DNA of 64,000 nucleotides from Sipunculus nudus. Its lineage: Eukaryota; Annelida; Sipuncula; Golfingiida; Sipunculidae. The stretch is from positions 21,797,400-21,861,399 of the forward strand of contig CM049322.1 in assembly GCA_026874595.1 (NCBI GenBank), given 5' to 3'. Position 1 is the first letter of the stretch; every line of letters starts with the position of its first letter. Under the pieces are notes generated by a model that saw only the letters and a program-made list of their open reading frames with translations, did not search any database and was not told the origin of the DNA. The position numbers and the translations under genes were made by a program. Below, piece after piece: positions 559-58,858 of this stretch.

Positions 559-2497
559 TTATATCATGTTGTGTTGCCACGGCAAAGACCCAACAAAACT
601 GTTATTATAGTGTTTCAGATACACGCGGACCTGTTTCCCTTCTTTATTCGTCACATTTCCTCCCCTCATATTCTGCATCTCATCCAACACAGCTGCCTCT
701 CTCCATGCTCCCGGTATGATTTCTCCCTGTGGCCCGTCTTGATCCAAGTCTTTATTCTGAAGGCCTGGATAGCGATCTCTCATTATGTTATGCAAACAAA
801 TGGCTGCGCTAACGATGGTTTCAACTGTCTTTGGGTCCTGGTGCATGGTCGTGATTAGGCACCTCCACCTGTCTGCCAATATGCCGAAACCGTTTTCAAC
901 AACACGTCTGCCGCGGGATAGGCGATAATACAGGATTCTCTCGTCGTCTTCCATGTTTCGGTGTGAAAATGGCTTCATCAACCACTGTCGAAGAGGAAAG
1001 CGTCATCTCCGAGGAGGAAATAGGGTACATCACGGTCATCATTCGGGAGTGGTTCTGGAAATCCTATGTCCAAACTCTCCAAGGCGGGCTGGAGTAGAAC
1101 CTTGGTTAAATACTTGGCAGTCAGATGAGGATCCTGGTGCTCCTACATCTGCCCACATGAACTTATAGTTCCCGTCCACCAGGGCTAGTAGAACTATACT
1201 AAAGTATCCCTTATAATTGTAATACAGGCTCCCAGACCAGACCTGCACGGACGACGGATGGCGACATGTTTTCCATCTAATGCTCCACGTGCATGGTGGA
1301 AGTTCTATCGGCGACCGAATAGTTCAGCTACCTCCCTCAATCTGTCTGGGGTCTGAAGTTGATGACTTCCTCACCATATTCATGGATGATGGCCTGGCAG
1401 ACGTGGGGCACAAAGAGGGAGATGGTATTAGATGCAATGCGGAAATGGTATGACAGGGACTTGTAGCTGTTTCCGGTCGCCATGTATCCCAACGTAATGG
1501 CATGCTTCAACCCTGCCTCAATTAGTGTTCTACGTCTGTAAAAACAATTTAGAAGGCAAATAATAAGTGTAGGAATGATGCAGATTATGCTTAATATTAC
1601 ATATAGTTACGATAATTCAGTGGTGTCAATTTTTCTTCCAGTGTGGGAGGATGACTTGCAGAGGAGACTGACCCCCCCCCCCCCCCATACGCACAAAGGT
1701 ACACACCATTACGCACACACAAAGGCACACACCATTACGCATACACAAAAGCATACACACACAGATATATATATACACACCTTTTTTAGCGTCCGTTTGA
1801 CACGCATTTCATATATGTATTAACCTAATCGCATTTCACATTACAGAAAATAATGTAGTTTCCAGTATAAGTTAATTCTAATCCAGGTTTAGATATAATA
1901 TTTCATAGTAAACTAGTAAATAAAACCAGTCTATACTTCTATTTATCAATATATTCCATTTCTAATATATATTATTCTGAATAGTGGGGGGGGGGGGGTG
2001 ATTACATTGACCACCCCCCCCCCCCCCCCCGGTCAAAAAGTGGGGGGATATATATCCTATATTGAGGCCCCTGCGATAATTCTGAATTCTGATTGGCATT
2101 TATTAGAAGTAACTACTTTTGATCCTTTTGGATATGGGGCGTGACACGCTGTAACGCTCTCTGAACATCTGGGGCTCCATACGTAAGAAATTGATGCAGT
2201 CACCATCACACTCCCGAGCCAACTCAATCATGAGTGTGTCATATTGGCCCAACAGAGTCCGCGGCTGAATCCAAGGCTTAACCCAACCGACCATCTACGC
2301 TGCCTTTTGATGACCCGTCTCTTCTGCCGAGCCCTGGTTAAGGCTGCCAAAATAATACCTTGTCGCTCCTGCAGGATCTGGAGCTGTAGACGAACCCAGA
2401 CCAGTCCGATTCGCTCCGGTGGTAGCGCCATGATTACATACAGGAGTATGAAGAAAGATCTGGTATCTAGTTCAATATATAGGCGGGTATTAAACAT
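559..2497 (-). pseudogene. PIF/Harbinger transposase, broken copy 1
   Basis: Remnant of a HARBI1-like DDE transposase (DDE_Tnp_4 family), read from high to low coordinates. The N-terminal helical part lies near 2,103-2,290 (motifs GQYDTLM and INFLRMEP). A middle part lies near 1,250-1,530, with repeated stops and frame changes. The strand-core segment with YYNYKGYFSIVLLALVD and WADVGAPGSSSDC lies at 1,039-1,248. The C-terminal end is at 559-981 (RRVVENGFGILADRWRCL, then SAAICLHNI). The pieces are in different frames, and a dispersed repeat is inserted at about 1,613-2,085 between the N-terminal and middle parts, so no intact enzyme is encoded. Family assignment rests on these recognised motifs. 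An active parent copy may exist elsewhere in the genome. Confidence 0.85.
1613..2085 (+). repeat. Dispersed G/C-tract repeat, copy 1
   Basis: This block matches 59,405-59,840 in the same orientation and order: a start like GTCAATTTTTCTTCC, the phrase TTTCATAGTAAACT, then GAATAGT followed by a G run and AACATTGACC-like text, then a C run. It contains poly-C and poly-G tracts and short CA-rich repeats near 1,690-1,780. It interrupts Harbinger copy 1. No coding capacity is visible, so it looks like a non-autonomous interspersed element. Confidence 0.7.
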
Positions 2498-26931: not shown

Positions 26932-27768
26932 CTTTAGAGTGCTGATTAGGATTTCACATAACAAAACTTGTGTTACCAAGCACACACCAAAAAACATTTA
27001 TTTAATATTGTCTCTGAAAATCAGCCCAGTCTGTACCGGTCGTGGTATATTTATCCATTTGGTATTGTGTTTACACTGTAATCAGCAACGCTAGTGTGTA
27101 TTGTAGCTTATTGTGCTTTTGTCTGTACATTGCTTGTATTAGACGTACCATTGAATATATGTTGTTTTGTCAGAATTAAAAAAAATTAGACGTTTCTTAA
27201 AGGGTTGATATTTTACAATGTTTCAGACTGCCTAGGCTGTGAAACCACCGAGTGCTGGCGTTTAAGCCCTACCAGATGTCTTTACAGAACCTGTACCGAT
27301 CACACCTGGGACGAAGCCCGCGCCCACTGCAGGGCACTGGGATATGACTTGGCTGTAATATCGAGTGGAACAAGAGACTTAGAGCGTCTGATCACGTACA
27401 GCTCAAAGTGCTCTCTTTGGGTTGGCCTTCATCGTGAAGAATGGGTGTACAAGAGTCCATTTCGAGGTATTGTTTTTACACCACATTTTGCACGAGTTTT
27501 GTGATGTAATAAAAATTAACGTTCATGAAATTCACTAGCAAATAAAAATCACAAATACAAGATTTGGCTGTATAATGCGCATACATGATATATTGCGGAG
27601 ATCTCTTCTATCTATTTAAGATTGGCCGAATATTCACCAGTATTACTGGGGGCCAGGACCTCGAAAAGGACACGATTGTACAGTGATGATCCAATCCAAG
27701 GGACTCAGCTACGTGAAGTCGGCAAACTGTAAAGACAACTACTCAGCCCTCTGCGTAAACCACGGAAA

Positions 27769-27832
<64 letters not shown>

Positions 27833-30800
27833 ACAGGTGCTCTTTTGATTATGTGACGCGGGCGTAACTCCTGTTATGGCACTCGTGTCTGGCCGCGTAT
27901 TACATTCTATGTTTAATCGGTACTGGTTGAACTCTCGTTGTCGTGTTGGCCTTGGGTTTTCACAAATGGCCGAGGTCACGTGATGAGCCTGGTGTGTAGA
28001 GATACACAGCGCTGTTTTTCCTGATAATTCCTAAAACGCGTGCTTACTGTGTTGTGCAAGGTCTAATAGACTGTTCGAGAAGTGGAAAATTCTCGGATTG
28101 GGGTGTGAAGGTTTATAAAGGGACTGTGTTTTATAACGGCAGGGCAGAAAGAGAACAACAGAGCAGATTCCAGCGGACGCAGAAGCGTGTGTCAGGACTT
28201 TATCCGACGAATGTGGCAATTATAGATTTTCAAAGACTTTCTCCTAGATTTTATGCATTTGGACTTCAGTTTACTTTCTGGGTTGTTGCGAGAACTTTCC
28301 ACTAGACTGTCATTCTCCGAGAGTTTACATTAAAAGGACTTATCGTTGTGACGGTGTTGGTATCAAGGTACTGTGCACATGATTTTTCTATGTGATTGTA
28401 TTGACTTGTTTTTATACCGCTGTTTTACTGTATAATTGTATTGATTTATATGATACAAATGTGATATATTCGGAAGAAAGCTCGCATTTTCTTTAACTTT
28501 CTCATTTTTTTTTTTTTTACCTTTGTTACACTTAAACCAGACTTACATGATGCCTAACATCGTCTGGCTTGCGGAACTTATGCGCTCATTACTATGCGTA
28601 AAAACAATATACTACAACAAAAATCCAGGTACTTGTGCTAGAAATGATATTTTTCCTCGTTGTAATTCCCTAGCTTTAGTTCCCTAGTTATAGCTTCAAT
28701 TATTGAAAAAAAGTGTCTATTATTGCTTGATACACAGTAAGTACACATGTACTTAAACAGTGGAGGCTAATTTGAAATTCAGTTGTGATCAGGGTAGTAT
28801 CGAATGCGTACAAGAACTTAAGTCTGGGCTATGTTCTTTGTGATATGGACAGGACTCGATCAATTGGTACACTACACGTGCAACACGTACCAGGAAGCAC
28901 ATCAGCAATGTGGTTCTGTATCGGACTCTGTATGGCTGCCTGTCATCAACAGAGAATCCGACCTGGCGGAGATAGAGAATATCATGTTGACTGAGGCCCT
29001 GTCGTCTATATGGCTTGGAGCGCGCAGGGTCAACTATACAACCCCCATTTGGCTAGACTGCACAAATAGCAGTACGTCCACTTCTATTATTCATGTACTA
29101 CACACTATATTTTTACTGAATACGATTATTTTTTCTTCCGGGCAATAACTCGTCCTAGCGATAATACCCTTAATTTGATTCCACTCTCCCTTGTATCCAG
29201 AACTCTTTATAAGGTCTTTAAAAATGAGTATGGGAACGGGCGTGAAATCTTCCGTTTTCGTTCATTTTGTCCGTATTTTCTACAGAGATATCATCACAGG
29301 GGGCGACCGCTGACGAATCTGTAAATTGTGGTTATCTTGACACAACAAACACTGAGCTCAGATTGGCTCCCTGTTCCAAGATGCTGGGCGTGATCTGTGA
29401 GAAAGGTAACAGTAAGAGAGGAGGGGAGAGAGACAGACAGACAGACTGTTTAGCATATCTAAACGTTTCACCGATATCATTACTAAGTACGAATAACCTC
29501 CACAATTCAAATAGGTCACATTTTAAGTTAGTTTAATACTATGATCAGTGTATCTATATTTTGGCTTTTTCAAGTTTTGAGTACCATATACACACATGGA
29601 GTTAATGGTTCATCAAAGGGTTCTTCAATCAGCATTTCGACACCAGCGTGAAAAGTGAAAAAGTCCAATACCTAAGTGTGCCTTTTATTCTTCCAGGATG
29701 TGCTGGCTGTACAGTTTCAACATGTCATAATATTTTGGGTCGATGCTATGTTACTTCCTGTGGTCCCATGACCTGGCAGGAGGGAAAGGCGTTCTGTCAG
29801 ATCAACAACCAAGCCATTGTTATCATGAGAGAGTTCGAGGAGAAGATAAAGGTCTTATCTCAGATATCACAACGTCTTAAAATCAAACAGTGCTCCGATT
29901 ACTGGGTTGGGCTCAGGCAACAAGACTGGATATACATTAATAAGCTTGGCGGTATGAATTTGGGTCTATTCGTTTGTATGCATGAAATAATACCCCTCCA
30001 AAGTGGCAACGTATTGGGGGGTTAGGGTTACCCAAGTGGAAAAATCCAGTAAATGAACGAGGTAAATGGTATCAGCATAATCTGTCTTTGATTTAAAGGG
30101 ATCTACTGTTATGGGTGTTTTCATCTAGGATGAAGACAAGCAAAGCTCCTGGAGAGTTGTTGAGTCGTCTTTGTGGAGGGTGAAAGCAACTTATGTAGGA
30201 CCCTGGCTTAAGTATATAATTGGTCAAATTACATTTGTTATTGATACATGAATTTAATTCATGTCACTATGATTTTTTTTACATGCTCTTTGCCATGATG
30301 TTTAAGAGATATAACCTTTCAGTTACCAGTTTTCCGTCGATCCAAATCACAATCATTAAAAGAGATATGTTACATGCAGATTGATGTAAATGTTTTCTCC
30401 AAAGAACCTCAAGAAGGACGGCGAATCAACGTATTAACGAAAACATTGGGGAACTGAAGTCCTATCTATGTGATTACGTCTAAAGATTTGCATTGCGATC
30501 AGACTGTATTGTTAAACGCGTGCACAAAGCATACATTGATATCACACGACTGAGTTTATAAGGTATAAAGTAGTAGCCATGGGCCCTGACGGCGATCTAA
30601 ATCTGTAGCAATACTAAAAACAGCAGCATATAAATATAAAACGCAGTGAACTATTCTAAACCTAATTTAAAAAAATAATTAACCAGGATATTATCATCAA
30701 TTCAGACAACGGATGATATTCCTGGTAAATATCATAACATTTAAAAGGTGAATACTTTTTTGAATTAAATCCAATAAAGTACAATTCAATTTTTAAAAGA

Positions 30801-33800
30801 AATTAAGTTTTAAGAGGAAAATATATTTTTATTAGAAAAGGACCTCGTTTGATTCTATCTGCTCTGCTACATTTACTTTCACGTTAGTAGGAAAAAGTGA
30901 AACAAATGTTCGATTCATAGAAACATCATCTAGAAAGGTTGCCCACCTGATGTATCTAATCACAAGTGACGATAGCATTATGCCTAAAAACGTCGGTGCT
31001 CATAGCTGCGACATAGTTCTTGACAAAATAGATTGAAATACGTGGAATCGGAGAACAGTTTTGTCCGCGAAATAAAAGGTTCACAGGCAAAACATCAGAC
31101 AAAACCCATATATTTTATTATATACGGAACGATTAACTCTGATAAGATCTTAAAACCTTATGCATTTTATAAGATTTTCATTTGTTTTTTAAGTTTCTGG
31201 CGAAAGGTGGAATTTTCCATTTTGACTTTCAGAAAGTAGACCAGTAGATAGTGACACCTCGTGCTTGCAACACGGTTTTTTATAATCTAAGCAGTAAAAT
31301 TAACTCAATCTGGCATATTTGGTTAAAGGGATAAACCATGGATGCACACTGACAATATATTTTATTATCATGTATTGCTTTTACCCAATAACTCGAGTAA
31401 TATCGCCTCAGTTATATTTGCACCTCTCCCCTGATAGGGTTCACGACGGAGATGAGGCGCGATATAAACATTAATGAGCTTATACAGAATACTTGTTAAG
31501 CAAACCTGGATACTAAGGAGATTCTAACTTTCAATGTTCTCAGTTATATATTGGGCCTATAGGTCGCAGAATATAGGTCAGCCTGAACTAATTTCTGATT
31601 GTCCTGTAGTTGTGTGAAAATACAAGTAAAGACTCTGGTGGACTGTCGTAGTTGCTGTCAATACCGGTCACATTTTTTTTTGTTTTCAGAATGGCACGAC
31701 CTAATCGGAAGGAATTCCGCAGTATACAGTGGTGGTGATTCGGGAAACCGAGACTGTGTGGTTATGGAACGGAACGGATCATTTTTCAATCGAAGGCTCG
31801 TGTCTTGCAGGGAAAGCCATCAGACGCTGTGCAGAAATTATAGTGAGAATTACCAATTATCAAAATGTTCATACTTATAACTATTGACCATGTCAGATTT
31901 TATATAAATGACGGTTTTATGTTTAGTTGAAGTACTATCAATACAACCATGCATTGGGGTTATATTTATAACAAAATATCTGTTAAATATAAAACGTAAT
32001 GGTGAATGCTTCCTGAAAAGCCGTTGGTCAAATAATTGGTCAATGAATTGACATATCAATAATGATTGGGAAGAAGGAAGCATCATTTTGCATACGTTAG
32101 CTGGTTAGAATTTGAATTTAACTTTAATGTACTTTAATTAACTAAAGGAAGAACCAAATTGAGTAAACACCGTTGTCATATACTTATTCATCGTAATATG
32201 TAGTCCTTTGCTGCTAAAACATTATGTTTCAGGAAATATCGTGGACAACATGAAACTCCTGTGCACAACACAGGATGAAGCCGCTGCAAAATGTCAGTTC
32301 AGACCACGGAGGCCAAGGTCAAGATTACCTTTTTTACGATCACGTGAGGAACACGTGCTTGTTACACAGGAACTGAAGAAAAGGCAACTAACATCAGTTT
32401 GGCTTGGCTATAGAAGACGTCTGCTGGAGCGCCCCCTATGGGTGGACTGCTCTCATAATCGTAACTATGAAACTGTTTTCTACACTTACCTGTGATCATA
32501 TTTGACCTCGATTGACCACACTCAAAGTCAGAATTTCTTGTTTAAATATTGCATAAGTTGGGTCGAGCTCTGAGAAACATACACACAAACCTTTTTAAGA
32601 GTTGCCTATTTTGTTTTTAATAAGAAAAAGCGAAAACCTTAAATAATATAGGTAACATCTTATTATATGATGTTTTTGTTGTTATAATGTATTTCTAAGA
32701 TAAAGAAAATATTAAAGCACACGTCCAATTATTAATGAGACTGAGCTTTTCACAAGAATATACATTGTATGTTACTCTAATTGAGAAACGCGGAAACGAG
32801 CCTTTTTTCCAGATGACCAACTTCTTTCTGATGGAACACTCGGACATTGCGGTTTTCTGAACGCAGATACTGGCAACGTTGTCATGGAGTCTTGTATTCG
32901 CCGACTTGGTTTCATATGTCAACAAAACGGTCCGTATGCCTGTCACAGTTCCTTTATATTTTTTATTAGGTAATTACAAAATAAGCTCTCCGTCCTCATT
33001 ATCAATGTTTAATTTCAGATTGTAGATATTGTAAAGGAGAATGTTTCAGACTCGGTGATCGCTGCTACTATTATCATTGTGATAGTAAAGACTGGGAGGG
33101 CGGCAGAGCACACTGCAGGTCACGTGACATAGATTACGCCGTTCTTCTTGATAAGGAGCGTGTACTTATGACGTCACGACTGAATAATACAACCTGTTTG
33201 AAATACTGGGTTGGTCTCCGACAGGTGGCGTGGGTGACGGGCTCATTAATTGGTAGGTCAAAAATTGTTCATTTGTTGTAGGAAAGAAATATTTCTTCTA
33301 GTCAAAGCGTACATAATCATGAAATTCCTGAGTTATTGAGAACTAATACTTTTACATTCATGTCACTTGTCAGCCGAAACATTGTCATTAAACATGACAA
33401 AATAAAAAAAAGTTCAGATATCACCAATAATTTCACTAAACGAATAAGGCAAACTCAGATTATACGATATTGATATTTTTAAGCGACTTTCTAAGAAAAT
33501 TATGCGTTAAAATTATGAATTATCGATAATTGGTGTTTTGTATGGGATTGTCCTCAAAATGGTCTACATATACTAGATATTTGTACTTGCTGCCATATTC
33601 CTGAAATATTCTGAAAAAAACAGGTATATATATATATAATATGGCATGATAAAGATATGATATGGATAACTAATATGATTTTGATGAATATAAAAGATGG
33701 CGGTGTCTGACTTGTTGAATTCATTACAATATCCATGATCGGCAAGCAAACCAAGTGTACTTGTGTCACCTTAGCCATCATCCGAGAAAATGATACAGTT

Positions 33801-36431
33801 GCTGTAACTTGACATTCTCAAAAGTATCTCCAAAATTTTATGAAAATAACAGAAAATGTTGGGGGCAATACGTTTCTATGGATGATATTTCTATCAATGG
33901 TCATTAAGCATTGCAGCTGTGTGACGATCCTTGAATCAGCTGCAGAAAATGTTTCATCGCTTCTGTACTTTTGCAGTTTCAAAGTAACCAGTAACTTTCG
34001 TAAAATGAAACAAATATACAAGTGACTCCACCTGCCTTGTTTAAGAAAAATAGACTCTCCAGGATCAATGAGCATTCAACGTTCAGGACAAAATATAGAT
34101 CAACATTTGATGCTATTTATATTCATTTTGTAAATTGCCAATCTCAGCAATACTATCATAATTGTAAATAAATATTCAGGGGGCACCATCAGTCTCAAAT
34201 CAACGTTAAAGCTGTCAACGTGAGTAGCTTTTTTTCATGACAACCCATGCAATACACATTGAGACAGAAGAACATTTGTATAAAATTTACCCAAAATGGA
34301 CAATTCAGAATACTAATATCTATTCGCGAGTGACTTTTATTAAGAACTGCATATTCCAATTGTGGATTCTGTATAGTAATTTGTTTACAGATCAAGAATT
34401 ACTACAATTTCATAATCAAACACATTTTTCTCACTTATTAATCTAAACAGTAAGTTCAGTTTAACCAGCCTTTTAAAAACCAGAGTGTTGGTTACCACTT
34501 AATTTTCAAGTTTCCAATTTGATTTTCCCTGGCCCTCGATTAAAATTGGGACCTGTTTACATGCGGCTTGACGCATGACACGACCGATAGGTCATGGACC
34601 TAGGTAGATTGGTATAGCTCACACGACTCACAGTATTTCACACTTACAACCCGGGCAACTTGGACGGCATTGATTGCCAAATATCAGCCTTATCTGTGTG
34701 AATATTGATACTGCTGTTCCCTGTAGACAGATTCAACGTGTTGTAATAAAAATGTCAATCTGAACTAGTTGTAAAGTAGCCCAGGGGTAGTAAACATGAC
34801 ATTTTTTAGTTCATATACTGTTGGATAAGAAAGATAACAAACTGCCCTCGACAGCAGTGTGATCCTTCGTCTGAACAGATGTGTACAGTATCACGTCCTT
34901 TGTACATACTGTATACATCTTCACGATTGTTCAAGTTGGGACCGGGAGGGGTGGGATGTTGAGTACTGAACGCGCTATTTTTTTTATTTTTTTTATTTTG
35001 CTCAATGGCTTTTTCATAATCTAAACTCTTAAATTTTCCATCCCTTGTGCAGGCTGACAGAGAAACATTCAATACCGATAAATCAATAAATAAATGTCTA
35101 TATATCAATTATTGAAGTGCACAAGACACCAATCTTAACCGCTGGAGCAAGAAAGTTTATGTGGATTTAAATAAAACTCAATAAAAATCTCCTTGGAAAC
35201 CGAAAATTAGGTCACTGCGAAATGTATCCTGAGCTATGGGATTTCTTTGTATCCCTAACATAATAATAAAGATGCTATACGTATCTTCCAGTAACTTCAT
35301 AATAATTTTATGAAATGCTGTGATATATTTTAAGCTTAACGATCATTGAGAGTGCCACCAGTGCTTCTTAAGACAGGTGGCGCCACCTGTAGTTTTTTTT
35401 CTATTTTTGAGACCAACAAATGATGGCAATCATGTCACTTTTTAGGCTGGTGTTTCATGTAGTCCTGAAACCGTTATATTTTAAAGGTATATGTATCGTG
35501 ACTATTCTTGTTCATTTTTTATACTGTCAAATTACATCAATTGTATCCGTTTCTCAAATATTTCTCAATCTAGTTTCCCGAGACCTGGTGTGTTTATTAA
35601 TTGGGACTAGTTTGGACCCCGCTTGGATAAGCCAGAGCACTACAGTAATCACCCAGCCCTTTCCGTCTTTTCTTTTAACCTCCTCTCCGTCCGGATAATA
35701 ACAATAGTTCAAATTGACATGTTGGTTTCATACTTGATTTATATATTGCCCATCACTCAGATAACTTTCCTTTTGAGTTTTGTGTCATGGAGTCAAAGGT
35801 GAAGGTCAGAAGAACTGTTTCTTTAAAAAATACATATTAAGCCGTTTTTAAATCCTAAACCTTCCATCTTCCACATATGGCTCCCCTGCCGATGGGGACC
35901 ATCTTTGTCGATTATAGGACCACATGGTCAGAGATCACGGTTAAAGGTCCATCCGTTCATAATTTTGTTTATTGATGATCACTCCAGGTTTGATTGAGAG
36001 GTTTTAACCACCCAAATAAGAAGTAGTGATGACATTCCTGTTGTGATTATTAGGCTAAAATATCATGAAAGTCATTGAACGTCATGACCCATGGATCGCA
36101 TGGTTGCATTCATAAGAATAATTCGACAGAACTCGAGCATAAAAAAAAATCATTAATTGCCGGACCATCAGAAAATACTTTAAGTTAATTCAGAATAAAT
36201 AAATAGATATATATCGGCATTGCATTAGAATATGTTACTCTTGAACGGATAAACAACCATATTTTGACATAATGAAATTTGCTTTAGGTTCACAGAAATC
36301 GGCATTCGTTTGGGCCGGGGTCGATTTTGCAAAGTCAGACGGTGACTGCTTGATTTTTATGAAAACGAATGGCGAATATAGGTCAAAGGTCAGCTCGTGC
36401 AGCGCGTACAGTCACGCTTTATGCTTACAAT
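24217..36431 (+). CDS. Gene A: secreted or membrane receptor with six C-type-lectin-like domains (13 exons; 3' end uncertain)
   Basis: Reconstructed exons: 24,217-24,286; 25,074-25,316; 25,497-25,619; 27,227-27,466; 27,621-27,764; 28,853-29,071; 29,286-29,405; 29,697-29,951; 31,690-31,842; 32,233-32,460; 32,813-32,929; 33,019-33,252; 36,288-36,431. Together they give about 763 codons: a signal peptide then six CTLDs alternating subtype A and subtype B. All introns are phase 1 with GT-AG ends, except the exon-5 donor, which reads GA. Every first-half exon carries a W-L/V-G-hydrophobic (WIGL-like) motif. The usual calcium/sugar motifs EPN/QPD and WND are not seen, so ligand type is open. No transmembrane exon was found downstream; possible tail exons lie at 38,981-39,135 beyond an LTR element. 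Start ATG could be 24,217, 24,220 or 24,241; the last gives the best signal peptide. It may be a pseudogene if the exon-5 donor is truly lost. Confidence 0.75.
25074..25619 (+). CDS. Gene A CTLD 1 (subtype A), exons 2-3
   Basis: Exon 2 (25,074-25,316) encodes the first half, with TWLGLTRQ and WLNCSD near its end. Exon 3 (25,497-25,619) encodes the second half, with paired cysteines in NNCVFLD and APCKTNQGVLCDVK. Both exons are phase 1-1. Confidence 0.8.
26030..26790 (+). pseudogene. Non-LTR retrotransposon 3' remnant (zf-RVT region)
   Basis: A frame broken by stops still reads SKYCTF, then KSEEETILHLFWNCKYSELL near 26,370-26,455. This is the Cys/Glu-Thr-Ile/His/Trp-Cys pattern of the zf-RVT segment found at the C-terminus of L1/Tx1-like reverse transcriptases. 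Flanking text (WKSNLALE, then WINFLALLLKRYLY) fits the same family. It lies inside intron 3 of gene A and is inactive. Confidence 0.65.
26873..26923. repeat. (AT)n microsatellite in gene A intron 3
   Basis: Alternating AT run. Confidence 0.9.
27227..27764 (+). CDS. Gene A CTLD 2 (subtype B), exons 4-5; exon-5 donor altered
   Basis: Exon 4 (27,227-27,466) has the subtype B pattern: CLGCETTEC, RCLYRTC, a WDEARAHCRALGYDLAVI helix region, then LWVGLHREEWVYK. Exon 5 (27,621-27,764) has HQYYWGPGP, GHDCTVMI and SANCKDNYSALCV. After the expected phase-1 end at 27,764 the next bases are GAAAGT where a donor GTAAGT is expected. The first GT is 4 bases later and would shift the frame. Confidence 0.75.
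27769..27828. repeat. (AT)n microsatellite abutting gene A exon 5
   Basis: An alternating AT run that begins at the altered splice donor and ends where an LTR begins. Confidence 0.9.
27829..28455 (+). mobile_element. Truncated LTR, copy 1 (Gmr1-like Ty3/Gypsy family)
   Basis: Starts TGTTACAG, as does the LTR at 36,970. It shares with that LTR GGCGTAACTC, TTTAATCGGTACTGG, CTTACTGTGTTGTG, a TTTATAAAGGG TATA-like box near 28,110, GCGGACGCAGAAGCGTGT and ATACCGCTGTTTTACTG. Similarity fades near 28,455, so the 3' end is missing. It is inserted in the (AT)n tract of gene A intron 5. Confidence 0.8.
28853..29405 (+). CDS. Gene A CTLD 3 (subtype A), exons 6-7
   Basis: Exon 6 (28,853-29,071) runs from the acceptor to donor GTACGT, with SIWLGARR and IWLDCTN near its end. 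Exon 7 (29,286-29,405) has SVNCGYLD, LAPCSK and GVICEK, followed by donor GTAACA. Both are phase 1-1. Confidence 0.8.
29697..31842 (+). CDS. Gene A CTLD 4 (subtype B), exons 8-9
   Basis: Exon 8 (29,697-29,951) has CAGCTVSTC, RCYVTSC, MTWQEGKAFC and YWVGLRQQDWIY. Exon 9 (31,690-31,842) has RDCVVMERNG and LVSCRESHQTLC. They are separated by a 1.7-kb intron in which nothing else was recognised. Confidence 0.78.
32233..32929 (+). CDS. Gene A CTLD 5 (subtype A), exons 10-11
   Basis: Exon 10 (32,233-32,460) has an Arg-rich segment (RPRRPRSRLPFLRSRE) and VWLGYRRR, then LWVDCSH. Exon 11 (32,813-32,929) has GHCGFLNA, MESCIRR and GFICQQN. Phases are 1-1. The Arg-rich insertion is not seen in the other subtype A domains. 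Confidence 0.78.
33019..36431 (+). CDS. Gene A CTLD 6 (subtype B), exons 12-13
   Basis: Exon 12 (33,019-33,252) has CRYCKGEC, RCYYYHC, WEGGRAHC and YWVGLRQVAWV. Exon 13 (36,288-36,431) has VWAGVDF, GDCLIFMKTNGEYRS and SSCSAYSHALCLQ, then donor GTAAGT. Reading through this donor meets an in-frame stop after two codons, so an unspliced message would encode a protein ending right after CTLD 6. The 3-kb intron between them holds fragments of the multi-unit repeat family. Confidence 0.75.
35180..36125 (+). repeat. Fragments of the multi-unit repeat family in gene A intron 12
   Basis: 35,187-35,410 matches a unit of the 61,716 copy (CTCCTTGGAAACC, GGTGGCGCCACCTGTA, CTATTTTTGAGACC). 35,750-36,125 has decayed matches ending in CGTCATGACCCATGG (about 36,080). 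A weaker end-like segment lies near 34,566-34,610. Confidence 0.55.
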
Positions 36432-52339: not shown

Positions 52340-52397
52340 ATGAGCTACTCCTATTTGGTATACTTTTGCTTGCTGTTTTTCTCCCAGGTCCAGAAAG
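52340..52397 (+). CDS. Gene C exon 1, signal peptide
   Basis: Encodes MSYSYLVYFCLLFFSQVQK, a leader with a hydrophobic core, ending in phase 1 at donor GTACGT. This matches the first exons of genes A and B in size and phase. Confidence 0.75.
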
Positions 52398-52468
52398 GTA
52401 CGTGTATTCGATTCTTCAAAAGGTGCAAAAAAGCAAAATATATATATATACCAAATATGCAGTCATAA

Positions 52469-52508
<40 letters not shown>

Positions 52509-53587
52509 TTGTAAATCCCCAGCAAAGATTTGTCATTTGACTGCTTGTTGTGAGAATCTCTTTGCCAAAAAGGCAGGGAATGATTTTGTTTTCATTTTAT
52601 GGTGGCATATGGTAACACTCAAGAAAAAAAATCATTACAACTGAGAGAAAATAGGTAATGTTGATCAAAATAATATATGTTAATTCTTAGGAATCTTTCA
52701 AATTATTCGACCATTCACGGGAATTTTGCTTGTCCCAGAACAGCTCAGCTGAGAAGTAGATTTGTGAAAGGGTGTACACCGGAACACAAGACTGCACAAT
52801 GAGAATCATGTAATCTCCGAGGTACCCATGTTGACTCAGACTATAATAGACGTTCAAAAGGCTTCGATTAGCTTTTCATGTTTCAACCCCTACAGGTCAT
52901 CAGGGAACAAGTTGCAATCAAAGTACTGCTTGGCAAAAGTATCCCAGGTGTTGCGGAGGTAAAACTGTTGCTTCTCTAGTGACGAAGGATGACTTGAATT
53001 ATTTTACTGATGAAATGAAGCGAAGAAACCTGACTTCTGTCTGGACAGGTCTTAGACGAAGAAAACTACACACGTGGACCTGGACCGATAACAGCACAAG
53101 TAATGTAGAAATTAGTATAACACAAGGTTAAAGTGTAAAAAGAAAAATGTTTATAATTTAATATATATATTATGGAACTCTGCCTTTATGTTGAAAAACA
53201 AAATGTTTTTATAAAAGGTCAAAGATAAGAAAAGAAATGTTTAATTTAGACATGGAATTGCGCATTTCAACAGATATTTTAGGAGGTATGAGGAATAAAA
53301 CTTAAGAAATAGTGTATTTTCCTGTTACACTTTTTCATTCAATGATATGAATATCAAAGACGTGCTCTTTTCACGGGATGACCGTCACTCTGCAAATTTT
53401 ACATGCTTGACAGACTTCCCCTATTCGATGAATGATGGCGCTGACACAGCAAGATGCGCTTTGCTTGATATGGAAAAAAAACAGCTGGAACGGGAACTGT
53501 GCGCGGCAAGGGGCAAAGGTCACATTTGTGAGAAGGAAGGTTTGTATCATATATATATTATATATATGCGTGTGTCTATGCATTTTC

Positions 53588-53631
<44 letters not shown>

Positions 53632-54777
53632 TTAATTGTAGGTTGCTCCAGCTGCTCTGAGTTAGCGGCATCCACGTGTTTACAAATAGAAAACAAATGT
53701 TATATCTACTTCTGTGACGAGGTCAATTTTGACAAGGCCAGAGCAAAATGCATAGAAGCTGGACATGACCTGGCAAGATTGCCAAGTAATTTTAGTCGAA
53801 TGTTGATTGGTCAACAGTACTGTAAACAGTTCTGGATAGGACTACGTCGGGAGGACTGGGTACCAGTAGAAGGTAGAATTTGTTAATTAACTTAAATTGT
53901 TTAATTTACTTAATAAATTTTAATTTCTTAATTAATTATAGCAATAAGAATACTGGCGAGTGTACCTGCTTTACCTTTAAAAGACATAATTTTTTCTGCC
54001 CTGTGAAATAAATATAAAAATGAAACATTTATAATTCGATAAACAATAACATCAACAAATAAATTGATTTTCAGAAGCCATTGGTTCTCGGCACGTGTCA
54101 TTATGGTCACCTGCCGAACCTAGTGAGGGTGGAAATTGCAGCATTATGAATTGGGATGGTACATCTTTCACATGGAGAGCTGTCCCATGTACAGAGCGCC
54201 ACCATGTAATCTGTGGAAAACACACAGGTAGAGTGACCTGACTGTATTATAGGGGGAATTACGACAGTTACGCCTGGTGGAAGACTTCACATACAATAAC
54301 TGAATGGACAATAAAATGTTATGACCCATATAATGTGTGAGTGTAATTTCAGTTATTTCTCAGCCCTTCTTACATTGTTTTTAGGACAAGATCTGACATC
54401 CAGAGGGACCACGGGACCAAGTTTGACTTCTGCAGTGTCGTTTACATTTCAAACTTCAACTAATCAAACCCAAGGTAGAATCATGCTGTATACTCTGATA
54501 AATCGAAAAAAAAAGAAAGAACAGAGAGAACTTAACCACCCCAGGGTATTTACATTTCACCGTATATGTATATATGCATCTGTGCAATGTAGAAACGTTT
54601 TAGTCATAAATAACAATCCGCAAAGAATGATCTTGACTCTGTTCAGTTTAATGAAATCTATTGTAATACTTTTTGTTCATGGACTTGCACATGTATTATT
54701 TCTTCAATGGGTGTCCCAGAGGATGTTTACTGTAAACAAAATGGTTACTGTTATTATTATTATTATTCAGTCATGTT

Positions 54778-54844
<67 letters not shown>

Positions 54845-57673
54845 GATGGCAGTACCATTCCATTCCTGGGGATTGGAATGGGTATAGGCGGGGCTCTACT
54901 GTTGATCGTAATAGCAACTGCTTGCTTTATTTGGAGGCGAACAGTAAGTAGGCTGACACATTATGGGAAAACGCTTTAACTCCACTGAACTAGCTAGTTG
55001 TATTATTGCTGTTTATAAATAATAATATTGAATACAATTTACACGCAAATTGACAGTACTGTTTAATATACTTTACACACAATAATGGGTAATATTTTGT
55101 TCTAATTAATATTTACTATTTAAAATTCTTAAAACCGTCGTTCTGTAAGTCAGAAAAATTTGGTGGAACTGACATGAAGTAATAATGTTAAAGTCCTTAT
55201 AATACAGTTTTTACTTTTCATTCAGCGTAAATCTAGGCACGAATGGCGAGCGCGGCAGCTAGAGGAGACTTCCAACGCCCCTTTGCTAGACAAAAGTGAG
55301 CATTATAAGTACAAGTATTAAACAAAGGAGCATTGTTGATTTAAGAAATATAGCTACGTTGTCATACGTTCTGGTGATGTAGATTTCATATATATCTCGA
55401 TATAAGATTTCACATTAGATCTAAACAAATATGTGCATGCTTTAACACAAACACATGCTCTCTTTAAATCCTTCCTATAAGTCATAAAAAAACAAAAGAT
55501 TTCTTGTGCAAGGTATGCACGTGCTTCTTTTATTTAGGAACATTTGTAATTGAGCCTCTTAGTGTTATATTTATACAGAACTTTCCACAAATGATTTCCA
55601 AAGAATAATTGCTGAAAAATTGTTAAGACTACATCAGAAAATTGAGCTGTGGTCCTTCCAAGAAGATTTTGTTGACATGGAGTTAGATGAAATTTATACT
55701 GATATGATGTGGACCACTTCAAAGGGTCATTATCACTCTGGCGATGAGGTGCAACAAAACTACCTGCACATCTTTAATAAGGTAGGTGATAGTGGTCAGA
55801 GTACTCTCATTTTCATGTATGATCAATAAAAAATAAATTATATATAATAAAAACATATGTAATACACATCATATATTTTTGTCTTTAGAATAAAGATGGC
55901 CTGCGTCCGGCTCGTATCCTTGTTCTAGGGGAGGCTGGTGTTGGTAAAACAACTTTTGTTAAGAAGATGCTGGTAGATTGGAGTCGAGGAGTACATAGTG
56001 CCAGGCAAAAGTTTAGAGTACAAAAAGGACTTGAACGATTCTTTAAATGTGTTGTACCGGTGTTTCTCAGGGATATTTCCAAAGACGAGCCTCTCTCCTC
56101 TATAATTAGACGTCAGTTGCAGATTAATGACGCCACATGCGATAGATTAATAAAAGAGATCACGTATAACCCGAAACGCATCCTCCTGATCTTGGATGGC
56201 TATGACGAATTTCGGGAGGATTACTGTCCAGATATATTAAAAATCATAGAAGGCAATATGTTCCAAGATATCAGTTTACTCATCACGTGCAGGACTCCAT
56301 ATCTGTTCTATCTTCCCGGTAAAAAAGGACGAGCTGATGTAAAAGTGCATCTTCAGGGTTTTTCGAACAAAAGCATAACACTTTATATCGATAGATATTT
56401 TGAGAAGAAAATGCCTTCGACCGAGAACATCAATGTTGAGAGAGAAATAGCTCTTAAAGAACTGTCATCTCTTGATGAAACCAATAAAGAAGAAACACTT
56501 GATAAAGCAGCATCAGTGAACGTCACTTCAACGGACGGTAAAGGACTTTATGACAAGATCAAGTCGAAGAAAGAGTTAGAAGAGATGAGCAGAGTGCCGG
56601 CAGTTTTGTTACTCATGTGCATCCTGTGGAATGAGCGAGGAGACCTGGCAAACACACTCACAGGATTTTACAAGGATTTTGTTAAGTACATGTGCCAACG
56701 TTATGCTAAGAAATACATAAAAGACAAACTAATTCCTCACACCGAAATATTCAACTATTTTAGGAGGGAATTGATGAAACTAGGCGAGATCGCCTTTGAT
56801 GGATTAAAAGAAGAAAATATAAGACTTTTATTTCCTCGGGAAGTAATAAACAAAATCATGGAACAGGATGATGTCACAATGAAACTAGGTTTCCTCAGGG
56901 AAGTAAAGAGAACATCTGAATCCATTGACTTCAGTTTTTACCACAGAACCATCCAAGAGTTCTTCACGGCTTACTTCATAGTAGAGTGTGATGAGAATAA
57001 GCGCCTCCAACTGTTAATGTCATTTTGTTCCTCCCAGCATCGTTCACAAGAGTCAAAACAGATCCTAAGGTTCGTAGTTGGTCTCGGTGGTTACGGTGTT
57101 AAGTTCCACGTAGAGGAAGCTATGTCAGGGTGGACAGAGGATGCCACTAGAGACAAGATCACCTTTCAACTGACCTACCTGGATGAAAATAGGGATGTAG
57201 AATTTAAACTTCCACCTGTCGTGGAAATTGAAATGTCTGCTTCTCATAAAGCCAGCACATATACCCGGTTTTTCAGAATGGCAGCCGATGACGTAGAAGA
57301 ACTGCACATGTTTGTGGTTGACTTGACCGTGCTGTGTTACCTAAGGGAGATGACGGCTCCCAAACTAAGAGTACTGAGCGTCTCTATGTCAACAGAACTT
57401 CTCACTTTGTATCCTCAGAAAGAGGTTCAAGAAAACTGCCAAATGGATGAACTATTGTCTATTTTTCCACTGCAACGGCTGGCCTTCAAGAACTTTAAAA
57501 AAGACAACTCTGGACATATCGTGAATTTATGTAAAAATCTTGATTCCGTTGAAACGTTAAAATCTCTTGACCTGAGGTCTTGTGAACTGTCATTAGAATC
57601 AGTACAAAAGCTGAGAAATATTCTACCCACACTGATGGAGAAGCAAGGGCTGCGTTTAAGTGAAAAATTGTAA
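52340..57673 (+). CDS. Gene C: transmembrane receptor with two C-type-lectin-like domains and a cytoplasmic NACHT module (10 exons)
   Basis: Exons: 52,340-52,397; 52,896-53,099; 53,360-53,539; 53,642-53,872; 54,075-54,227; 54,385-54,474; 54,846-54,943; 55,226-55,295; 55,579-55,781; 55,889-57,673. They join in frame to 1,023 residues with GT-AG ends throughout. Order: signal peptide (1-19), CTLD subtype A (20-147), CTLD subtype B (148-275), Ser/Thr-rich stalk (276-305), transmembrane helix (about 312-335), basic juxtamembrane and linker (336-429), NACHT with Walker A GEAGVGKT (443-450) and Walker B LLILDGYDE (about 528-536), helical and winged-helix-like segments, and a short leucine-rich end (about 979-1012). 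The family knowledge is that NACHT proteins are usually cytosolic switches that oligomerise on NTP binding; here the sequence predicts one tethered to a surface lectin-like domain. It is probably an innate immune receptor; ligand and output unknown. No break was found. Confidence 0.82.
52896..53539 (+). CDS. Gene C CTLD 1 (subtype A), exons 2-3
   Basis: Exon 2 (52,896-53,099) has TSCNQSTAW, RCCGGKTVASLV and SVWTGLRRRKL, then WTWTDNS. Exon 3 (53,360-53,539) has ANFTCLTDFP, TARCALLD, LCAARGK and HICEKE. The exon 3 acceptor (AATATCAAAG) is weaker than the others. Confidence 0.75.
53592..53626. repeat. (AT)n tract next to the gene C exon 4 acceptor
   Basis: An AT run ending about 15 bases before the acceptor. 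Confidence 0.85.
53642..54227 (+). CDS. Gene C CTLD 2 (subtype B), exons 4-5
   Basis: Exon 4 (53,642-53,872) has CSSCSELAASTC, KCYIYFC, FDKARAKC, GHDLARL and FWIGLRREDWVP. Exon 5 (54,075-54,227) has SLWSPAEP, GNCSIMNW, FTWRAVPC and HHVICGK. Confidence 0.8.
54385..54474 (+). CDS. Gene C exon 6, stalk
   Basis: 90 nt, phase 1-1. Thr/Ser-rich (TSRGTTGPSLTSAVS), with a likely N-glycosylation site at NQT. It corresponds to gene B exon 10. Confidence 0.7.
54782..54841. repeat. (AT)n tract forming the 3' end of gene C intron 6
   Basis: The AT run stops only a few bases before the acceptor of the transmembrane exon (TATATAG). Confidence 0.9.
54846..54943 (+). CDS. Gene C exon 7, transmembrane helix
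   Basis: 98 nt, phase 1 to 0. Encodes FLGIGMGIGGALLLIVIATA, then CFIW and basic RRT: a glycine-rich single-pass helix with a cytoplasmic stop-transfer signal. Donor GTAAGT. Confidence 0.8.
55226..55781 (+). CDS. Gene C exons 8-9, juxtamembrane segment and pre-NACHT linker
   Basis: Exon 8 (55,226-55,295) encodes basic RKSRHEWRARQLEE and NAPLLDK. Exon 9 (55,579-55,781) encodes a predicted helical segment (FQRIIAEKLLRLHQKIELW), then an acidic part with DMELDEIYTDMMW just before NACHT. A DE-I/L-Y segment at this place recalls the short region preceding NACHT in many NLR-like proteins. No CARD, DEATH or TIR domain is visible. Confidence 0.7.
55889..57673 (+). CDS. Gene C exon 10, NACHT NTPase with short leucine-rich C-terminus
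   Basis: One uninterrupted 1,785-nt exon of 594 codons. Walker A is RILVLGEAGVGKTTF. Walker B is RILLILDGYDEF, with the NLR-type acidic extension. A sensor-like DISLLITCRTP follows, then helical regions (VPAVLLLMCILW) and a winged-helix-like YHRTIQEFFTAYF. The leucine-rich part is only about one repeat long (LKSLDLRSCELS) before the stop at 57,673, much shorter than in vertebrate NLRs. The intronless NACHT exon suggests it moves as a unit. Confidence 0.88.
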   Translation, partial: NKDGLRPARILVLGEAGVGKTTFVKKMLVDWSRGVHSARQKFRVQKGLERFFKCVVPVFLRDISKDEPLSSIIRRQLQINDATCDRLIKEITYNPKRILLILDGYDEFREDYCPDILKIIEGNMFQDISLLITCRTPYLFYLPGKKGRADVKVHLQGFSNKSITLYIDRYFEKKMPSTENINVEREIALKELSSLDETNKEETLDKAASVNVTSTDGKGLYDKIKSKKELEEMSRVPAVLLLMCILWNERGDLANTLTGFYKDFVKYMCQRYAKKYIKDKLIPHTEIFNYFRRELMKLGEIAFDGLKEENIRLLFPREVINKIMEQDDVTMKLGFLREVKRTSESIDFSFYHRTIQEFFTAYFIVECDENKRLQLLMSFCSSQHRSQESKQILRFVVGLGGYGVKFHVEEAMSGWTEDATRDKITFQLTYLDENRDVEFKLPPVVEIEMSASHKASTYTRFFRMAADDVEELHMFVVDLTVLCYLREMTAPKLRVLSVSMSTELLTLYPQKEVQENCQMDELLSIFPLQRLAFKNFKKDNSGHIVNLCKNLDSVETLKSLDLRSCELSLESVQKLRNILPTLMEKQGLRLSEKL

Positions 57674-58858
57674 CGAAACCAGACAAATTTCAAATATAGA
57701 AATATTTCTCCGTTACCTATGATATTGATACCAATATAACCTATAAAAAACTAGTCAGGTATATATAACTTTGTGGACATAACATTGAACGTAATAAGAA
57801 TGTTCATGAAATAATTCTTTTTTTTTATGGTGACAGCCTGAGGTTTATCACTTTGGGGATGACAGGATTTGTAGAGTAACATTTTGCATTGAAGTATTAG
57901 TGCCAGTCTTTATAAATAACAAATTTATTTTCAAAATAGCATGAAGAGATTGTTTCTTGCCGTTTTTAAGATTCAACTCCACGATAGCATCCGATATTAG
58001 ATGTTTCAAATAAGAAGTATTTTGCAGTATTTTGCTAAACCAATGGCTCGATTTCATTGTAGTATCACTGCATTAGATGTAATTGTTTGTAAATATATCT
58101 GTAAAATATATTTTTAAATCATGAAATTAAACCTTAAATCGCATGAACGTATCTTGTAATTATATGGTTTTGCTTGACGAAGGAAAGGTGATAATTTACA
58201 AATGATAGATTATTGAATGTTTTAACTAAAAAGGTCATAACAGTCTCTACTCTTTTTACTCTGTGCTCCGCCTTTAGGAATGAGAGTAGGCGTATTACGA
58301 CTAGCCGACAACATGATGCCGACCTAACTAAGCGAAATGTTGCTGTGTAAGGGTTAAAGGGCAGTTTAGGTCGAGGGCCTTTACTCAGTGTAAACAAAAA
58401 CGACTGGACACATAAGAAACGGGAACTTTCATATCAGTGTCCGTTTTACGCGTGTCCTGTGTTTTCTGGAAAAACAAGTGTGTAACAAAGTTATCAACCC
58501 TCATACAGTCCGTTCGTTATATACCGACGTTGCTATTTGACTTTTGATACCGTTCATTGTATTAATAACTCAGCACAACACACTAACACATCCGGGAAGG
58601 GGGGGGGGGGGTCAGAGAACAAAAAAAGAGACCTAAGAACACCACAGACATCTCGTCATGTTTTGTACAGTATAAAAGGTAGTCATAACTACGTTACACT
58701 TGTATCAAGGACACGTCGACAAAATGGCGTCGACCAAGTTAAGTGTTATATCAATAAGACGAGGTCAAAGAGCGTACAAGATCAGAAACCTTTCTTTGAT
58801 ATTAGGCACACAAACTGAAAGCCTGGAGAGAAATAAAAAGATTCTCTTTTTATCACCT
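57674..58858. other. Downstream of gene C, no gene recognised
   Basis: AT-rich sequence with a G run near 58,600. It likely includes the 3' untranslated region of gene C, but no canonical poly(A) signal was assigned. Confidence 0.4.

Follow-up and report, generated by a model that had tools for sequence, protein, structure and literature searches.

A predicted membrane-anchored NACHT protein with a C-type-lectin-like ectodomain and its paralogues in the genome of Sipunculus nudus

Gene structure

We have analyzed a stretch of 64,000 nucleotides from the annelid Sipunculus nudus (assembly GCA_026874595.1, contig CM049322.1, here contig 17, positions 21797400-21861399), hereafter called the window, against the background of the whole assembly (1.43 Gb in 153 contigs). 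On its plus strand, at positions 52340-57673, ten exons join into 3018 nt with a single open frame of 1005 amino acids followed by a stop codon. The predicted protein comprises, in this order, a signal peptide, two C-type-lectin-like domains (CTLD1 and CTLD2), a stalk, a membrane helix, a juxtamembrane exon, a pre-NACHT region, and a NACHT domain with a C-terminal tail; from the evidence presented below it is very probable that the CTLDs, the membrane helix and the NACHT domain are encoded as one polypeptide. All nine introns have GT-AG boundaries, in phases 1,1,1,1,1,1,0,1,0, and according to a simple score of our own the donors fall into the 83rd-99th and the acceptors into the 79th-97th percentile of the local GT and AG sites. 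An earlier, sequence-only reading had proposed ten exons that join in frame; the spliced frame agrees with it, and the junctions at 54943/55226 and 55781/55889 lie exactly where that reading had placed them. An Rfam scan of the window at gathering thresholds returned no match.

The exons are best described together with their counterparts in paralogous loci of the same genome, nine of which, including the window, were read as DNA (the others being L009, L011, L017, L024, L029, L030, L031 and L032). Exon 1 (52340..52397, plus strand, like all the exons that follow) contains the start codon and the signal peptide MSYSYLVYFCLLFFSQVQK and ends with a phase-1 donor. It is the sole candidate in the window according to the rule used for first exons; in a scan of seven loci that left out L011 and L031, this rule gave candidates in the window, L029, L032 and L009, and none in L030, L024 and L017. 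CTLD1 is divided between exon 2 (52896..53099), with a counterpart in eight of the nine loci (not in L017), and exon 3 (53414..53539), modelled in six of nine, the exceptions being L009 and L017, which have no model, and L031, in which the copy has a frame break. The two halves of CTLD2 are encoded by exon 4 (53642..53872) and exon 5 (54075..54227), both with counterparts in all nine loci, while the Ser/Thr-rich stalk (exon 6, 54385..54474) is modelled in the window only. Exon 7 (54846..54943) encodes the predicted transmembrane helix (approximately residues 292-317) and the stop-transfer sequence IWRRT, and terminates in a phase-0 donor; a membrane exon corresponding to it is modelled in all nine loci. 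The juxtamembrane exon 8 (55226..55295) has a basic start and a dileucine-like end, EETSNAPLLDK. Exon 9 (55579..55781), the pre-NACHT region, is modelled in eight loci, is weak in two of them (L024 and L032), lacks a model in L017, and is also found in NACHT loci without CTLDs. Finally, exon 10 (55889..57673), with 594 codons, covers the NACHT domain, a winged-helix/HD2-like region, a short end resembling leucine-rich repeats (LRR), and the stop codon; its Walker A motif GEAGVGKT (55928..55951) conforms to G-x4-GK[ST], as do its equivalents in all nine loci. The word ATTAAA, a possible, weak polyadenylation signal, lies 453 bases beyond the stop codon (58126..58131, plus strand); since the region is AT-rich and similar words occur also in the introns, such words are not usable as evidence.

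Domain composition of the predicted protein

In the N-terminal half Pfam recognizes Lectin_C in two stretches (E 2.1e-15, 57.8 bits); the frame of exon 2 alone is borderline, at 22.4 bits just below the cut-off of 22.6. Among solved structures CTLD2 matches the chains of CLEC4A4 and CLEC6A (1.6e-5 and 2e-5). The CTLD fold with its paired cysteines is present as far as can be judged from sequence only. Sugar-binding CTLDs carry EPN or QPD together with WND. In CTLD2 these positions are occupied by EPS and WRA, both encoded by exon 5, which makes classical Ca-dependent sugar binding unlikely, and we have dropped the reading of the protein as a sugar-binding lectin. In a hydropathy plot, the 12 highest segments of 19 residues all begin at residues 290-301, with a top value of 2.36. 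The signal peptide and the one membrane helix indicated by hydropathy speak against a cytosolic location, the location itself being predicted only.

The C-terminal half contains a NACHT domain at residues 421-584 (Pfam E 5e-22, 78.9 bits, cut-off 26.7). Both nucleotide-binding motifs noted from the letters alone are intact, Walker A as GEAGVGKT and Walker B as LDGYDE, and a Walker B-type motif is found in all nine loci, in the form LEGYDE in L029, L031 and L011 and LDGYNE in L032. Among solved structures, exon 10 is matched best in sequence by NLRC4 and NLRP3; a profile built from five members aligns with NLRC4 over positions 10-320 (E 3e-18) and with NLRP3 over positions 9-336 (E 8e-17), a span that in both proteins includes the winged-helix region. 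A histidine of the winged-helix type, the counterpart of which contacts ADP in NLRC4, is invariant in the five loci aligned, and the match of the window chain to NLRC4_HD2 is sub-threshold (19 bits, cut-off 33.1). These matches identify the segment from NACHT to the winged helix as a predicted NLR-type STAND NTPase. Pfam finds no LRR in the window chain, and its short LRR-like end was judged by eye; positions 492-554 of the profile match the structure 4r5d, a chain annotated as "Leucine rich repeat protein" (E 5e-7 for the whole chain). The paralogue L030 (L030:56-1981, minus strand) has a sub-threshold LRR_6 match at its C-terminus (22.5 bits, cut-off 23.4) and by its predicted sequence comes closer than the gene of the window to a complete NLR. 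Searches of the 1005-residue chain gave no match to CARD, PYD, DD or other death-fold domains, TIR or kinase at E up to 0.1, and because no N-terminal death-fold was matched, we do not file the gene as a canonical NLRC or NLRP.

A family of paralogues in the same genome

The assembly contains at least 132 NACHT loci, 98 from a NACHT search (99 rows, two of which were merged) and 34 from a search with exons 9-10, merged by hand; both searches score the best candidates only, and the locus counts are lower bounds. The corresponding search with the ectodomain returned 124 rows, composed of the 50 short CTLD exon rows used below, the two stalk and membrane exons of the window itself, and 72 rows, each a long single ORF, that belong to a dispersed repeat. 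At 20 of the 132 NACHT loci (the window included) a listed CTLD match on the same strand lies no more than 12 kb upstream; these loci are distributed over contigs 3, 5, 6, 9, 12, 13 and 17, and one further paired locus, L024, was revealed by a profile of our own. At one of the 132 loci a match lies downstream, where it forms part of the following pair on contig 13, and no opposite-strand match from the 50 listed CTLD rows occurs within 12 kb of any of the 132. That 20 of 132 loci share the position and orientation of the CTLDs led us to drop a chance run of exons as the explanation.

The nine loci read as DNA were assembled in two ways. L009-L028 had the 20 highest Pfam scores for NACHT apart from the window, and CTLDs are present in four of them; L029-L032 were added on the strength of CTLD and NACHT hits (in L031, a CTLD hit) already known there. 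Twelve other paired loci lie outside the nine. In all nine the CTLD2, membrane and NACHT exons occur in the same order and on the same strand, a rate that is biased because four of the loci were chosen for their known hits. Outside exon 10, the family exons are 14-67% identical to their window counterparts. The sequence-only reading had proposed extracellular CTLDs, one membrane pass and NACHT in a single polypeptide; the spliced frame and the domain searches, which recovered both Lectin_C and NACHT, support this layout, and the nine loci that keep order and strand support it more strongly. We conclude that there is good genomic support for the CTLD-membrane-NACHT layout as a predicted multigene family in one animal genome.

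As to the distribution of the copies, 74 of the 132 NACHT loci are on contig 17, similar to the concentration described for the pearl oyster in the available text of that report (PMC9646362). Two NACHT loci of contig 3 (40722680 and 40821244), separated by about 98.6 kb, have CTLD hits 9815 and 9819 bases upstream, respectively, and may represent either a recent duplication or an assembly duplicate.

Exons linking the two halves, and selection

A stronger indication than proximity that the two halves belong together comes from the exons between them. A fixed rule for membrane exons (entry after two bases, exit in phase 0, hydropathy of at least 2.1, a basic end, and splice scores) finds one within 3.5 kb upstream in seven of the nine CTLD loci versus none of 16 other NACHT loci, with the proviso that the rule was fixed after the candidates and a laxer scan had been seen. 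The two loci missed are L011, in which the exon starts about 50 bases outside the span, and L031, whose donor is GC with the phase unchanged. The membrane sequences are merely 14-29% identical to that of the window yet remain hydrophobic, as expected for a helix that is kept for being a helix.

To keep the frame, the membrane exon and the pre-NACHT exon must be joined by an exon with a phase-0 entry and a phase-1 exit. Candidates for it are present in all nine loci, the edge of the pre-NACHT exon being assumed in L017, where it is not modelled. The best candidate ends with P/A-L-[LIVT] in seven of nine loci versus one of 360 random intervals, a motif that was set after the nine loci had been seen.

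Purifying selection acts on both halves, in those exons where it is measurable. In comparison with L031, the closest paralogue (63% identity in the NACHT exon), the ratio of nonsynonymous to synonymous rates (dN/dS) is 0.14 for exon 4, 0.17 for exon 9 and 0.15 for exon 10, at dS values of 1.4-1.8.

A number of observations weigh against the view that the locus encodes a single functional receptor. The laxer scan yields weak membrane-exon candidates in six of ten loci without CTLDs, and linker-exon candidates of the required phases are present also in 264 of the 360 random intervals. The leucine motif is absent from the top linker candidates of L011 and L030, and the strict acidic dileucine consensus, [DE]xxxL[LI], is satisfied only in L032 and L017. 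Synonymous sites are saturated for exons 2 and 5 in the comparison with L031, and for five of the six exons in that with L029; elsewhere dS is high (1.4-1.9). The frame of exon 3 (CTLD1) is broken in L031 around position 1350 in reverse-complement coordinates, which may be due to decay of this copy or to an assembly error. In 111 of the 132 NACHT loci our searches show no CTLD nearby, so that the NACHT domain by itself could carry the function. Some weaker CTLD exons outside the 50 listed rows are found on the opposite strand about 7-12 kb from the NACHT domain of the window (48866 and below) and about 7-8.5 kb from that of L009 (L009:296-2096, minus strand), and L024 has a second CTLD set on the same strand about 8-9 kb upstream (L024:9-860, plus strand); because CTLD genes cluster, proximity proves less than the exons that connect the halves. 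The stretch from the membrane helix to NACHT yielded no effector domain, which leaves the output unexplained. An AlphaFold2 model of exon 10 alone reached a confidence score (pLDDT) of 33, and no fold search was based on it. Lastly, the gene is known from genomic DNA alone, and its reading as one unit was tested through paralogues of the same genome.

Neighbouring CTLD genes and dispersed elements

On the minus strand of the window, between 42104 and 48866, there is a set of CTLD exons (48.9-43.7 kb) arranged as four units in series with candidate phase-1 boundaries, followed by a membrane exon (42234-42104) and a short peptide that ends with REPL (41280-41236, phase ambiguous). No NACHT domain was found downstream of this set, which by its sequence appears to encode a NACHT-free CTLD receptor. 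At 27227-36431 on the plus strand, approximately three two-CTLD units with candidate phase-1 edges follow each other, and may constitute one multi-CTLD gene or several. A tblastn search with the gene model revealed no second NACHT domain in the 64-kb window. Since these CTLD sets look like short-tailed relatives, NACHT probably joined a pre-existing two-CTLD receptor design, or was lost from one.

The dispersed repeat detected by the ectodomain search accounts for 72 rows, with 21 pairs on the same strand less than 5 kb apart. One copy, on contig 11 (L033, 165000-171500), has intronless open reading frames of 362, 381 and 441 amino acids; Lectin_C is present in both of those searched (441 residues, 5e-11; 381 residues, 2e-10), and an adjoining reading frame has two CARD stretches (2e-9). 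We record it, as an observation only, as a mobile or virus-like element with host-like CARD and CTLD genes. None of the 72 rows is within 15 kb of a NACHT locus. The window itself also contains a fragment of a DDE_Tnp_4 transposase (562-1002, minus strand; Pfam 3e-9).

Phylogeny of the NACHT domains

A tree built from 25 NACHT domains shows the loci with CTLDs to be clustered, a score as low being reached in 3 of 500 label shuffles, without uniting them in one clade. In particular L017, which has CTLDs, groups at 100/100 with L016, which has none, and the starred branches of the tree force at least two changes; because several of its rows have long branches, the number of head swaps is uncertain. 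Of three non-CTLD loci searched, two have CARD-like stretches before the NACHT domain, both below the cut-off (L012, E 0.007; L016, E 0.03), and the third, L018, has no such stretch.

Discussion

The segment of exon 10 from NACHT to the winged helix aligns with vertebrate NLRC4 and NLRP3, which differ from the Sipunculus protein in being cytosolic, in carrying CARD or PYD instead of CTLDs and a membrane helix, and in their long LRR. The nearest published relative, according to the available part of its description, is AjNLRC4 from the sea cucumber Apostichopus japonicus. This protein is reported to reside in the plasma membrane, with immunoglobulin (Ig) domains outside the cell and a NACHT domain inside, and no CARD or LRR is mentioned for it there (PMC8699970). 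It is reported to bind bacteria through the Ig domains, to oligomerise, to bind beta-actin and to drive phagocytosis (PMC8699970). The likeness consists in extracellular recognition domains, a membrane helix and NACHT on the inside; the differences are Ig domains in place of CTLDs, two helices (483-503 and 776-795) versus one, and its description as a single gene (PMC8699970). As Pfam finds no Ig domain in the window chain, we regard the Sipunculus gene as similar to AjNLRC4 in layout and do not file it as a member.

Other systems share parts of this design, to the extent that they are covered by the accessible text of the respective reports. AjNLR-new also combines Ig, a membrane helix and NACHT on one chain, with NACHT reported outside and Ig inside (PMC13133943). 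Sea-anemone NLRs are predicted to be membrane-bound, but via 3-5 N-terminal helices, and a lectin ectodomain is not mentioned in that text (PMC5094078); likewise, NLRs of the sponges Dysidea avara and Amphimedon have membrane helices and are predicted to be membrane-bound, while an ectodomain is not described and a CTLD-NACHT combination not mentioned there (PMC12909245). The NACHT proteins of the pearl oyster are similarly expanded and enriched in regions of one chromosomal scaffold, but possess an N-terminal death domain or HEPN, the CTLD-membrane-NACHT layout being unmentioned in the available text (PMC9646362). A TNFR-caspase hybrid of amphioxus represents a comparable shortcut receptor, in which an extracellular sensor is fused to an intracellular immune effector, built from other domains (PMC2575513). 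We found no CTLD-membrane-NACHT protein or family in the open-access literature covered; supplementary tables and most subscription journals, which lay outside this search, may list one. The claim of the sequence-only reading that no named family has this layout thus stands for the CTLD version within the searchable literature; in a wider sense, an Ig-membrane-NACHT receptor (AjNLRC4) and NLRs with membrane helices have been published. Membrane-anchored NLRs are therefore already known, and the CTLD-headed version is the new part within the literature covered.

What the intracellular half does is the question on which a competing interpretation fares best. Following the model of AjNLRC4, the NACHT tail could serve as a cytoskeletal or membrane scaffold in phagocytosis, rather than as an inflammasome-like NTP-driven switch. 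The reported behaviour of AjNLRC4 provides a precedent, and a chain in which no death-fold, TIR or kinase was matched is consistent with it; on the other hand, the Walker A and Walker B-type motifs kept in nine of nine loci and the winged-helix histidine kept in all five aligned point to kept nucleotide control. We therefore consider a scaffold possible but doubtful as the principal role, and scaffold and switch may both hold.

Somewhat less probable still is that the gene has two products, with splicing or intron retention supplying a short-tailed CTLD receptor in addition to the full-length chain and the ratio of the two setting the sensitivity. Retention of intron 7 would leave a membrane receptor with a tail of 11 residues, the frame is kept when any single one of exons 2-6 is skipped, and the adjacent minus-strand CTLD gene appears to be just such a NACHT-free receptor. 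Skipping of exon 7, 8 or 9 alone breaks the frame, with stops at residues 289, 330 and 345, respectively. The donor of intron 7 is good (97th percentile of nearby GT sites by our score), and hence its retention is not forced.

We judge it very improbable that two adjacent genes have been misjoined, in which case exons 1-7 would encode a CTLD receptor with a short tail and exons 9-10 a NACHT protein of the cytosol. It is true that the join is known from the genome only, that read-through into intron 7 reaches a stop after 11 residues, that CTLD genes without a nearby NACHT exist in the window, that such genes are clustered in the surroundings of the window gene, L009 and L024, and that a downstream NACHT is lacking for 18 of the 50 short CTLD rows. 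Such an accident of neighbourhood, however, does not agree with the uniform upstream position and orientation of the listed CTLDs at 20 of 132 loci (none of 50 rows being opposite, with weaker ones at two loci), with membrane exons in all nine loci read and, by the fixed rule, in none of the 16 other NACHT loci, or with the recurrence of a leucine-motif linker exon (7/9 vs 1/360) despite the low identity of the membrane sequences. Least probable of all is a decaying NLR copy whose frame was kept by chance, a reading to which the frame break in exon 3 of L031 lends some colour and which we have dropped in view of 1005 open codons over ten exons and the dN/dS of 0.14-0.17 where measurable.

With moderate confidence we therefore favour the following model of a single receptor, in which the topology, ligand, sorting, switch and output are what we infer. 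The protein would be a single-pass type I membrane receptor, with the two-CTLD ectodomain at the place usually taken by CARD or PYD in an NLR. The CTLDs would bind a microbial or altered-self surface, probably outside the classical Ca-dependent sugar site, since WND is lost, and binding of the ligand would cluster the receptors. The leucine motif behind the membrane helix would mark them for endocytosis, so that NACHT would face the cytosol from the plasma membrane or from a phagosome. Clustering could then free the ADP-locked NACHT-winged-helix unit to oligomerise, and the output would be delivered by partners through NACHT contacts, either with NACHT proteins from other loci of this genome or with the cytoskeletal machinery of phagocytosis, as reported for AjNLRC4.

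Conclusion

In vertebrates, surface lectin receptors and cytosolic NLRs are the products of separate genes that communicate through adaptors. In Sipunculus nudus both halves appear to be joined in one gene, present in many copies with recurring exon phases. It is tempting to speculate, and we offer this as a tentative and rather unlikely extension, that the CTLD-membrane-leucine-motif module and CARD are interchangeable heads of NACHT, giving the animal a large surface-facing repertoire of NLRs in which the C-type lectin and NLR pathways are merged within single genes and an inflammasome-type switch operates on the phagosome. If expressed as predicted, the family would provide a natural experiment on the function of NACHT without a death-fold domain, would reveal whether an extracellular ligand can directly drive NACHT oligomerisation, and would inform us how exon shuffling gave the NLRs their heads.

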